A stretch of 64,000 nt of DNA from contig NZ_JACJQY010000018.1 in the NCBI RefSeq assembly GCF_014696925.1, positions 1-64,000 on the forward strand, in the 5' to 3' direction. Numbering within the stretch: the first letter of the stretch is position 1; each line of letters starts with the position of its first letter. This DNA is from Phormidium tenue FACHB-1050. Its GTDB lineage: Bacteria > Cyanobacteriota > Cyanobacteriia > Pseudanabaenales > Pseudanabaenaceae. This document shows positions 6,282-48,253 of this stretch, one piece after another. The translations under genes and the position numbers were made by a program. The notes beneath the pieces are model-generated. The model was not told where the DNA came from. It did no database searches and was given only the letters and a program-made list of their open reading frames with translations.

Positions 6282-6437
6282 TGTGTCCACACAAGTTATC
6301 AGCTTTAGCGTGAGTTACTAATGATCCCCCTCAATCCCCCTTTTTAAGGGGGAAGAAGAAAATTCTCCCCCCTTAAAAAGGGGGGCTGGGGGGGATCTAA
6401 ACCCTCAAACGTAGACAGAGAAACTTGTGTGTACACA
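6282..6437. mobile_element. MITE-like element, family 1, copy A
   Basis: Ends tgtgtccacacaagtt / aacttgtgtgtacaca (15/16 inverted match) around a gatccccct...ggggggatc palindromic core. Confidence 0.7.
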
Positions 6438-7049: not shown

Positions 7050-7098
7050 AAAAAACCGTAGAGTTGCGCCCCACAGGGGCGCAACTCTACGGTTTTTT
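7050..7098. terminator. Bidirectional terminator-like hairpin between convergent genes
   Basis: aaaaaaccgtagagttgcgcccc-acaggggcgcaactctacggtttttt. Confidence 0.85.
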
Positions 7099-10946: not shown

Positions 10947-11103
10947 TGTATACACACAAGTTGTCAGCTATATCGTGAGTTACTAATGATCTCCATCAAT
11001 CCCCCTTAAAAAGGGGGAAGAAGAAAATTAATTCTCCCCCCTTTTTAAGGGGGGCTGGGGGGGATCTAACCCTCAAACGTAGACAAAGCATTGTATGTAC
11101 ATG
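10947..11103. mobile_element. MITE-like element, family 1, copy B
   Basis: Same layout as 6282..6437: tgtatacacacaagttgtcagct...cgtgagttactaatgat + core + ggatctaaccctcaaacgtagacaaag. Confidence 0.65.
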
Positions 11104-11125
11104 GAAGTTTAAATCTCTTAGAGCT

Positions 11126-11275
11126 TTTAAGAAATCATTTAAGAATTACTTTCTGCGGTCAAAAGCTCCAAGAGATCCCCCTCAATCCCCCTTAAAAAGG
11201 GGGAAGAAGAAAATCCTCCCCCCTTTTTAAGGGGGGCTGGGGGGGATCTAGACAATTCTTAAATGGTTTCTTAAA
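11126..11275. mobile_element. MITE-like element: same palindromic core within different terminal inverted repeats
   Basis: tttaagaaatcatttaagaatt / aattcttaaatggtttcttaaa inverted, 20/22 match, around gatccccctcaatcccccttaaaaaggg... core. Confidence 0.65.
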
Positions 11276-36013: not shown

Positions 36014-36154
36014 CGTTTACACACAATCTGTAGGTTTTAGATCCCCCCCATCCCCCCTTAAAAAGGGGGGAGAATTTTCTTCTTCCCCCTTTTTAAGGGG
36101 GATTGAGGGGGAGCATTAGTAACCCACGCTGTAGCTGATAACTTGTGTGTATGC
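36014..36154. mobile_element. MITE-like element, family 1, copy C (opposite orientation)
   Basis: tttacacacaatctg...gatccccccca...ctgataacttgtgtgtatg. Confidence 0.6.
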
Positions 36155-37499: not shown

Positions 37500-37592
37500 T
37501 TATAGCAATCCTAAATGGTTTGTGGAAGCGTACCCCTTCGGGGTACGCTTCCACAAACCCAAAAATCTACAAATGATTTACGAATGCTATAG
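37500..37592. mobile_element. Short MITE-like element with TATAGCAATCCTAAAT ends
   Basis: tatagcaatcctaaatggtttgtgg...atgatttacgaatgctata with internal gaagcgtacccc-ttc-ggggtacgcttc hairpin. Confidence 0.6.
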
Positions 37593-37639: not shown

Positions 37640-37694
37640 AAAACCCAAATAGTGTGAGGCGGCGCGAAGCGCCGCCTCACACTATTTGGGTTTT
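37640..37694. repeat. Long palindrome sharing its stem with 45389..45443
   Basis: aaaacccaaatagtgtgaggcggcgc-gaa-gcgccgcctcacactatttgggtttt. Confidence 0.85.
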
Positions 37695-38191
37695 ATGTCC
37701 TAACAAGAATGGCGACAGCTATAACTTTACAAGAGATACTACCTTCCCACCCAATAACACCAATTCACGAAAGTGTTGCAACACTTTTATGAATTAAAAA
37801 CCAAACCCAGTAAAGTCTTTAAATACACAAAATTGTATTTTGGTATAATACCAATCCCCAAAAGTGTTGCCACACTTTTGGGGATTAAAAACCAAACCCA
37901 GTAAGGTTTTTAAAAGCACAAAATGGCTACGTCATTTTGTGCTTTGGTATAGTTTAGTTGTTCGGCTATTGAGAAAAAATAACGTTGGACGATCGCGATC
38001 GCAGTTTGTGTTTAGAAAAGGCGATCGCACTCAAGAAATTTGATCAGCCAAATCCGTCTGGTCTACGCGATTCTCCAATTTATTGGTTAGCTAAATCGTA
38101 ATCGATATATTTGTGTCTTTTTTATTGGCTTAAAATAGACGTTTTAGAACCCATACCACATTAGCTGACTAGAGCCTAATCTTGTAAAGTC

Positions 38192-39355: not shown

Positions 39356-39514
39356 TATTGCTCAGGAGCGCCAACTATAGCTGTCGCCAACCCAGAAAGT
39401 GAGTAGCAGCGCGAAGTACCGTTACTCACTTTCTGGTTTTTAAATGTTCGGTCACACAACTTACGGGAATACAGGTTAAGCTAGGATTAATCATCGCTTC
39501 TTACGTCACAATCT

Positions 39515-45195: not shown

Positions 45196-45278
45196 TTTTT
45201 TAAGTTAACTGCAAAAAAGAGAGACAGTGCTAGGTGCTGTCTCTCTTTTTTTGAGCGCTAAGTAGTTAATTACAAACC

Positions 45279-45325
45279 AAAACCCGTAACGTTGCTCCCC
45301 TGCGGGGAGCAACGTTACGGGTTTT
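45279..45325. repeat. Long palindrome
   Basis: aaaacccgtaacgttgctcccctgcggggagcaacgttacgggtttt. Confidence 0.8.
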
Positions 45326-45388
45326 GTAATTTATTTTGCAAGTGTGGCAACACTTTTATAGCTATAGCCACCTGTATCAGGACAAATC

Positions 45389-45443
45389 AAAACCCAAATA
45401 GTGTGAGGCGGCGCTTTGCGCCGCCTCACACTATTTGGGTTTT
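45389..45443. repeat. Long palindrome, same stem as 37640..37694
   Basis: aaaacccaaatagtgtgaggcggcgc-ttt-gcgccgcctcacactatttgggtttt. Confidence 0.85.
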
Positions 45444-45552
45444 ATGTCCTAAAAAGAATGACGACAGCTATATAAATTAAAAACCAAACCCAGTCAGGGT
45501 TTTAAAAACACTAAATGGCGTAGCCATTTAGTGTTTTGGTATAATTGCACTT

Positions 45553-46587
45553 ATGAAATCTGGTTATACTCTGCCTGTATTTGCGATCGCTGCTGCTAAA
45601 GCCGCCATCCTTGCCATACTCAAAAAAGACTCAGCTTCTATCGAACTTAATCTATTGGAATCTGGTTTAGGGATCATAGAAATTTCTCAAAGTGCAATTA
45701 TTGATGAGAATATAGCCATTGCGATCGCCATTAGCAATCCAGGGGATAACCTTGATCTGACCGCAGGAACACCTGTCTGGGCATGGGTAAAGTTAGAATC
45801 TTTAGGTGCAGAACGCATAATTTTAGAAGCTGGAGAGGGTTTGGGAAGAACCGCTAGTGGAGAGCCAGCTATCTATCAATTAGCGAGAAACTTAGCAGAA
45901 GTGAATCTCTTGCAGTTAATTCCCAATCATCTAACAGCAAGAATTAGATTTATATTACCAGAAGGTAGAAATTTAGCTAAACGTACCTCCAATGCCGCTT
46001 TTGGCATTTTAGAAGGTCTATCATTACTAGGAACTTCTGCAATATCAAAGCCGCTCTCCGTAGAAGATAAACTAGCAGAATTTCGTGCAGATTTACAAGC
46101 TAAAGCGGTCAATTCTCATCAGATAGCTTTTTATATCGGTGCTAATGGCTATCAAGTTGCTCAAAATTTAGGATTTCAACCTTCACAATTAGTGCAGACA
46201 GCCAATTGGGTAGGTGCAATGTTAGTGGAAGCGGCTCTCTTAGGGGTAACTGAGCTTACTCTCGTTGGCTATCATGGCAAATTATTAAAACTTGCTGGTG
46301 GAATTTTTAATACTTCTAGTCACTTAGCTGATGCCCGAATTGATATCTTAGTTCGCGCCGCCGTGCATGAGCAGTTACCATTTGCCCTCATTCAAGAAAT
46401 AGAAAGTCTACCCACTGCCGAAGCTGTGCATAAATTATTAGTTGAGCATGACTGCGATCGCCAAATATTCCAATATCTCACCGCTCAAATTACGCAACGT
46501 GCCACAGCCTATATTCAGAAATATACGGATCGCCAGATTGAGATTAAAACAATATTGTGCGATCGCTTAGGGCAGTTAGTTGTTTAA
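45553..46587 (+). CDS. cbiD: Cobalt-precorrin-5B C1-methyltransferase
   Basis: MKSGYTLPVFAIAAAKAAILAILKK; IPNHLTARIRFILPEGRNLAKRTSNAAFGILEGLSLLGTSAI. Confidence 0.92.
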   Translation: MKSGYTLPVFAIAAAKAAILAILKKDSASIELNLLESGLGIIEISQSAIIDENIAIAIAISNPGDNLDLTAGTPVWAWVKLESLGAERIILEAGEGLGRTASGEPAIYQLARNLAEVNLLQLIPNHLTARIRFILPEGRNLAKRTSNAAFGILEGLSLLGTSAISKPLSVEDKLAEFRADLQAKAVNSHQIAFYIGANGYQVAQNLGFQPSQLVQTANWVGAMLVEAALLGVTELTLVGYHGKLLKLAGGIFNTSSHLADARIDILVRAAVHEQLPFALIQEIESLPTAEAVHKLLVEHDCDRQIFQYLTAQITQRATAYIQKYTDRQIEIKTILCDRLGQLVV

Positions 46588-47507: not shown

Positions 47508-48107
47508 CTAACCGATTGGTTTAATTAACTCAACGCCATCACGACCATCCCCTGCGGCGCTCAAAAATACTTTGACCTGCTCATCCTTAGAAGTTGGCAA
47601 AGTCCGTCCTACATAATCAGGATGGATGGGTAACTCACGATGACCGCGATCGATCAGAGCTAATAACCTCACAACCTTGGGACGACCGTAATCATGGATT
47701 GCGCTCAGGGCTGCTCCAATTGTTCTTCCGCTATAAATAACATCATCGACTAAAACAATCGTTTTGCCATTGAGATCAAAGGGAATCTCAGTTTTGCTAG
47801 GTGTTCGCAGTCCAATCTTGTCGAGATCGTCCCGATAAAAAGTAATATCTAATGCGCCTGTAGGCACTAAGACCCCTTCAAGGGTATGAATCTGCTTAGC
47901 GATCGCCACACTTAGTGGCACACCACGAGTATAAACACCGAGCAAGACCACATTAGAGAGATCACCGCTAGCTTCGACAATTTGCGAAGCCAGACGATTG
48001 ATCGTGCGGCGTAACTCGTCCTCAGATAAAATTTCGACAATCTTGGATTGTGACACTACTAGTTTCAGTAAATTAGTTGGTAGTTCTGTAATTATAGCTA
48101 TCAACAC
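47508..48107 (-). CDS. pyrR: Bifunctional pyr regulator / uracil phosphoribosyltransferase
   Basis: [41 protein letters not shown]; true start may be GTG near 48056. Confidence 0.93.
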
Positions 48108-48253
48108 TTATATTAGGACAACTCCAAACCTAGGAGGCAAATGGCGGCGCTTCGCGCCGCCATTTGCCTCCTAGGTTTGTTTCCTAAGAAAACTGGCGAC
48201 AGCAGCTATAGATATAGAGATATAGCGCTTTGAGATTATCTCTCCAAAACAAA

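Follow-up and report, generated by a model that had tools for sequence, protein, structure and literature searches.

The locus under study lies upstream of cbiD in the window, by which we mean the whole stretch of 64,000 nucleotides analysed, and consists of one palindromic element (B) that interrupts another (A). Both stretches quoted in an earlier, sequence-only reading of this DNA are present in the window: the uninterrupted stretch gtgttgcaacacttttatgaattaaaaaccaaacccagt at approximately 37773-37812 and the interrupted stretch gtgtggcaacacttttatagctatagcc ... gacgacagctatataaattaaaaaccaaacccagt at approximately 45342-45495. The orientation of B is taken from its consensus, with the TAGCTATAGCC end first; the unit has the form TAGC...GCTA, with TAGCTATAGCC at its start and GACAGCTA at its finish, and its imperfect inverted ends of about 27 bp, counting the flanking TA, enclose a hairpin with a 26-bp stem. 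The fold of this hairpin as DNA gives a z-score of about -11 to -12. The copy of A at 45340 lacks the usual outer left end, TAATACCAATT, and has the right end ...TTTTGGTA. The coordinates of these features, and of related copies elsewhere in the window, are collected in Table 1.

Table 1. Elements A and B at the cbiD locus and their relatives in the window.
Feature	Position	Strand	Description	Basis or limits
B element	45359..45470	+	112-bp IS630-type MITE	Comparison with paralogues and with orthologous empty sites of other copies
Duplicated TA target, left copy	45357..45358	.		Orthologous empty sites of other copies have one TA
Duplicated TA target, right copy	45471..45472	.		
B hairpin	45389..45443	.	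Perfect 26-bp stem, 3-base loop	
A element, host of B	45340..45541	+	Two hairpins, split by the B insertion	With B taken out, the sequence follows the A consensus across the junction; left limit approximate
Second B copy	37640..37723	+	Lacks its left end but keeps an intact hairpin and right end	
B-related element	48093..48212	+	Other hairpin stem, B-type ends	End match 21/27; right limit approximate
Uninterrupted A copy	37755..37845	+	Empty site of the sequence-only reading	Limits approximate
Second uninterrupted A copy	37846..37949	+	Directly behind the first	Core match; limits approximate

Removal of B together with one TA from the locus yields CACTTTTATAAATTAAAAACC, which equals the uninterrupted paralogue CACTTTTATGAATTAAAAACC (37785) in length and differs from it by a single mismatch; the mismatch falls within a TAAATT able to pair with the left arm AATTTA of the 45340 copy itself. 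The sharp limits of B and this fit in length confirm the nested insertion of one palindrome in another that the sequence-only reading had described. The TA duplication it had seen at the junction also stands: the length after removal fits one TA, at the window locus as at two further loci (L004 and L028), and a single TA is found at the orthologous empty sites of four other copies. A 4-bp TATA duplication is ruled out, as the host sequence would then exceed its proper length by 2 bp at the window locus and at L004, and it is contradicted by the empty sites, which align with one TA and no gap.

In two relatives (G022 and G005) the region upstream of cbiD reads GAGCGCTATAATTACAT(G/A)TATGAAATC and the entire A[B] insert is absent; these relatives lack A as well as B, and no orthologous A with an empty TA was found for the B copy at 45359. 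At 45538-45553 the end of A and its TA re-form TGGTATAAT, 8 bases ahead of the cbiD start codon, at a position where the relatives without A have TATAAT; a possible -10 box may thus have been kept while the sequence upstream of it was displaced. Directly before A, at 45278-45330, there is an extra palindrome formed by CAAAACCCGTAACGTTGCTCCCC and its complement, with like units at 7050, 42744 and 57478.

B belongs to a large family in this genome (5.63 Mb in 89 contigs). Copy numbers are given as counts from pattern searches: the right stem of B has 121 matches and its 13-base right end, GGCGACAGCTATA, has 163 exact matches, with no match for the control of either search (the reversed pattern in the case of the stem), and thus the pattern occurs far beyond chance. 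A further pattern, TAGCTATAGCCAN{20,50}AAACC, with a minimum gap one base too wide, gave 4 matches and is left out of these counts. Within the stretches that were read, we distinguish 88 two-ended copies of the B family, which start with TATA in 80 cases and end with it in 84; a TATA-to-TATA length of 116 bp is common to 68 of the 88, and the base three positions outside the copies is A or T on the left in 82 and on the right in 83. The family keeps out of open reading frames: 6 of 84 sites lie within one, compared with 389 of 600 TA sites drawn at random from the window. B was found in all 26 Pseudanabaena genomes searched, this one included, and in none of 32 genomes from outside the genus; we found no description of it in Pseudanabaena in the open literature. 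The contig that holds the window (C10) ends at 93623, either within a B copy or immediately next to it, and some breaks of the assembly therefore fall in B repeats. A solitary B-type end, TATAGCTGTCGCCAACCCAG, with no recognisable element behind it, lies at 39376-39402, and a separate family of repeated palindromes, GATCCCCCTCAATCCCCCTT...AAGGGGGG, is present at 6323-6397, 10988-11249 and 36042-36112.

The hairpin of B was compared across 68 copies of equal length. As these copies have common ancestry and were selected for similarity in the stem, the counts that follow are not counts of events. The loop reads TTC in 33 copies, GAA in 30, TTT in 4 and AAA in 1. The stems hold 26 compensated changes (17 of them distinct) and 25 one-sided changes; no non-Watson-Crick double change occurs in the 68 stems, 2000 shuffled controls gave a mean of 1.7 double changes and a maximum of 7, and the terminal repeats, taken as a control, contain no compensated change. 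Orthologous copies L051 and L375 carry opposite loop orientations between nearly identical flanks. Between the orthologues L023 and L397, which are identical in the flanks compared, the loop is inverted, one base pair is changed with compensation and the right arms differ; the right arm of the G005 copy of this pair complements the left arm exactly even past the core stem. The loop is likewise inverted in place between the orthologous sites L297 and L360, and L135 and L136 show the exact inversion of an ordinary terminator-like hairpin that lies downstream of the gene preceding cbiD.

The stable fold and the excess of compensated changes over the shuffle mean are what would be seen if the hairpin were kept for a role in RNA, as a terminator or a processing or attenuation signal, and compensation reflected selection on the RNA and not copying of the DNA. 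B could have such a role and still be a MITE; we regard the role as unlikely. Selection for pairing leaves the occurrence of both loop orientations unexplained, together with the in-place inversion between L051 and L375 and the right arm that complements the left beyond the core stem in L397 versus L023, and an Rfam search around the 45340 locus returned no family match. Template switching between inverted repeats has been described as leaving homogenised arms and an inverted spacer (PMC8604942). The comparison of copies shows that the B hairpins evolve as palindromes, a pattern that is most likely the product of template switching during replication.

The sequence-only reading had called for further pairs of filled and empty sites, and had named their absence elsewhere, or ends not shared between copies, as what would speak against it. 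The 88 two-ended copies share their ends, and orthologous empty sites with a single TA exist in related species for four copies of the family. These were sought by joining the flanks of 14 B-family copies with a single TA and searching six related genomes. For L310 and L098 in G005, and for L079 in both G024 and G022, the alignment is free of gaps across the junction and shows one TA. The empty counterpart of L322 in G005 is GGCTTTTTATTAATTAA, as opposed to GGCTTTT-TA-B-TA-TTAATTAA in this genome. Of the four copies, L322 is typical of B, and the other three are variants of the family in one end or in the stem. The pairs L107 and L013, L112 and L069, and L091 and L108 show no clean empty site, and the comparison of L348 with G008 is ambiguous owing to an indel beside the junction. 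The four sites without an element, each with one TA, indicate that the B family moves by TA-targeted insertion. Other copies occupy sites in common with relatives (L013, L297, L300 and L331 with G022; L051 and L023 with G005), and thus insertions occurred both before and after the lineages split.

The host element A is itself abundant, with 211 matches to its core, and the right end of its consensus, TTTTGTGTTTTGGTATAA, matches, at 17 of 18 bases, an IS630 end that occurs at two of this genome's contig ends (L032 and L033); on account of this match A is probably an IS630-type MITE too. At least 9 of the 88 two-ended B-family copies lie inside A, about seven times the expectation for TA sites outside open reading frames (P ~6e-6), and they fall at different positions and are independent. 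G022 has an A[B] of its own at another locus, with the insertion point 2 bp away in the A sequence. A joining of A and B at 45340 by recombination between palindromes, with a TA pattern that arose by coincidence from TA-rich ends, would find some encouragement in the fact that B starts and finishes with TA, which partly builds TATA into both ends, and in the missing left end of A, which indicates that the region was rearranged. Such an origin is very improbable given the lengths that fit a single TA at three loci, the exact orthologous empty sites of four other family copies and the different positions of the copies inside A. A further palindromic element, at 37501-37592, has ends TATAGCAATCCTAAATG...ATGCTATA that match those of an IS630 of the same genome (L034, contig C67), which are perfectly inverted (TATAGCAATCCTAAATGA); it is a MITE whose likely partner is resident.

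IS630-family (DDE_3) genes are present in all 26 genomes of the genus, and the elements with readable ends measure about 0.93-1.2 kb, most of them starting TATAGC or TACAGC in the TA convention used here. One such element of Pseudanabaena sp. FACHB-1998 (L158/L217, linked through identical contig matches) ends in TATAGCTGTCGCCAAGTGTATTAGGAC, read inwards, and its type of protein, assigned to the IS630 family by Pfam DDE_3, is the best match in the genus. Its end agrees with each of the two B ends at 22 of 27 bases, leaving differences at about 5 of 27, and with those of a B subfamily at 25 of 27. When this end was probed against every 27-mer of the window, the five best scores (22, 22, 21, 21 and 18) all fell on ends of B or of B-related elements, and the next best was 17. 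A full-length copy in FACHB-1998 (L241, 951 bp) has the ends TATAGCTAACACCAAGTGTATTAGGAC and TATAGCTAGCACCAAGCGTATTAGGAC and a broken open reading frame; a relative in Westiellopsis (L242) ends in TATAGCTATTGCCAGAAGTGTTAGGAC and TATAGCTGTAGCCAGTAGTGTTAGGAC. The sequence-only reading had suggested looking for an IS630-type transposase with TATAGCT ends. One with B-like ends was found in other Pseudanabaena, with relatives of similar ends in other cyanobacteria, but not in the 89-contig assembly of this genome. Relatives of the L217/L241 type of transposase from Nostoc/Cylindrospermum are about 77% identical to it. In this genome no close match was found, the best being a 48% C-terminal fragment, and a copy may be missed in its assembly. 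The IS630 groups that this genome does hold are ruled out as partners of B, since those of their ends that could be read belong to other types (TATAGCAATCC and TTTGGTATAA among them).

These ends also bear on whether B could be a REP- or REPIN-type palindrome spread by a RAYT (Y1 tyrosine) transposase or another single-strand system that recognises hairpins, a very improbable reading: B is high in copy, intergenic and strongly hairpinned, but a REP is a palindrome of 20-40 bp with a terminal GTAG/CGTC tag, and B is a 112-bp unit with inverted ends outside its hairpin that match an IS630 element, with a TA duplication and precise empty sites, and with no GTAG in its consensus.

B is accordingly a real mobile element of a known kind, a RUP-like IS630 MITE. 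It combines the TA duplication, the terminal inverted repeats shared with IS630 and the short, multicopy unit, without room for a transposase gene, that characterise IS630-derived MITEs; a cognate transposase in the same genome is a common but not necessary feature of these and was not found here. The interpretation of the sequence-only reading, a palindrome that is or was mobile, with TA targeting and IS630/mariner-like machinery, is supported, since the empty sites, the match of the ends to an IS630-family element of the same genus and the shared TATA-bounded ends agree. Very probably, then, B is a non-autonomous, 112-bp MITE of the IS630/Tc1-mariner type that was moved in trans to a TA and inserted in an older A. 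We propose a model in which an IS630-family transposase acting in trans would recognise the imperfect inverted ends of B, excise the element and insert it at a TA, which is thereby duplicated; this cut-and-paste route is modelled on ISY100 and the family at large. At the window locus B would have landed in the older, two-hairpin MITE A upstream of cbiD. After insertion, copying from arm to arm, most likely by template switching during replication, would keep the hairpin a near-perfect palindrome and invert its loop.

This work gives a genus-wide, high-copy IS630 MITE defined ends, a target and a likely transposase group, and allows palindromes in Pseudanabaena to be annotated as insertions instead of guessed regulatory signals. 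It seems rather probable that the hairpins of these MITEs form a natural record of template switching, in which loops invert in place and arms are rewritten between close genomes faster than the flanks change, and that A elements serve as landing pads that give rise to nested MITEs. The B copies and their orthologous sites are in any case a dataset at hand for measuring, in a bacterium, how hairpin loops invert and arms are corrected.

Among known systems, RUP of Streptococcus pneumoniae is the closest to B in size, copy number and proposed mobilisation. RUP is about 107 bp long, has about 110 copies per genome and ends like those of the resident IS630-Spn1, and its movement in trans has been proposed, together with a reported preference for insertion in or near IS elements (PMC3049150); the proposal for its origin is that of Oggioni and Claverys 1999 (PMC3049150). 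The likeness, which extends to the IS630-like ends, is one of design only: sequence and host differ, the outer ends of B flank a long, perfect, GC-rich hairpin, and the IS630 of RUP is resident, whereas that of B was not found in its own assembly. ISY100 of Synechocystis sp. PCC 6803 is an IS630/Tc1-mariner element 947 bp long whose imperfect inverted repeats measure 24 bp; it targets TA, which is duplicated on insertion, and 30 bp of each end suffice in vitro (PMC2170065). Like B it is cyanobacterial, of the IS630 family and TA-duplicating, a likeness drawn from its description, but it is autonomous and carries a transposase gene. Anabaena sp. 90 has many short, hairpin-forming MITEs, mostly intergenic, which are reported to lack similarity to the IS ends of that genome (PMC3542288); B, in contrast, has an IS630 end match, from other strains. 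The homogenised arms and inverted spacers of template switching between inverted repeats (PMC8604942), as in quasipalindrome mutation in E. coli (PMC7202029), are both seen in the B hairpins, where what appear to be the same signatures extend across the copies and orthologues of a bacterial MITE.
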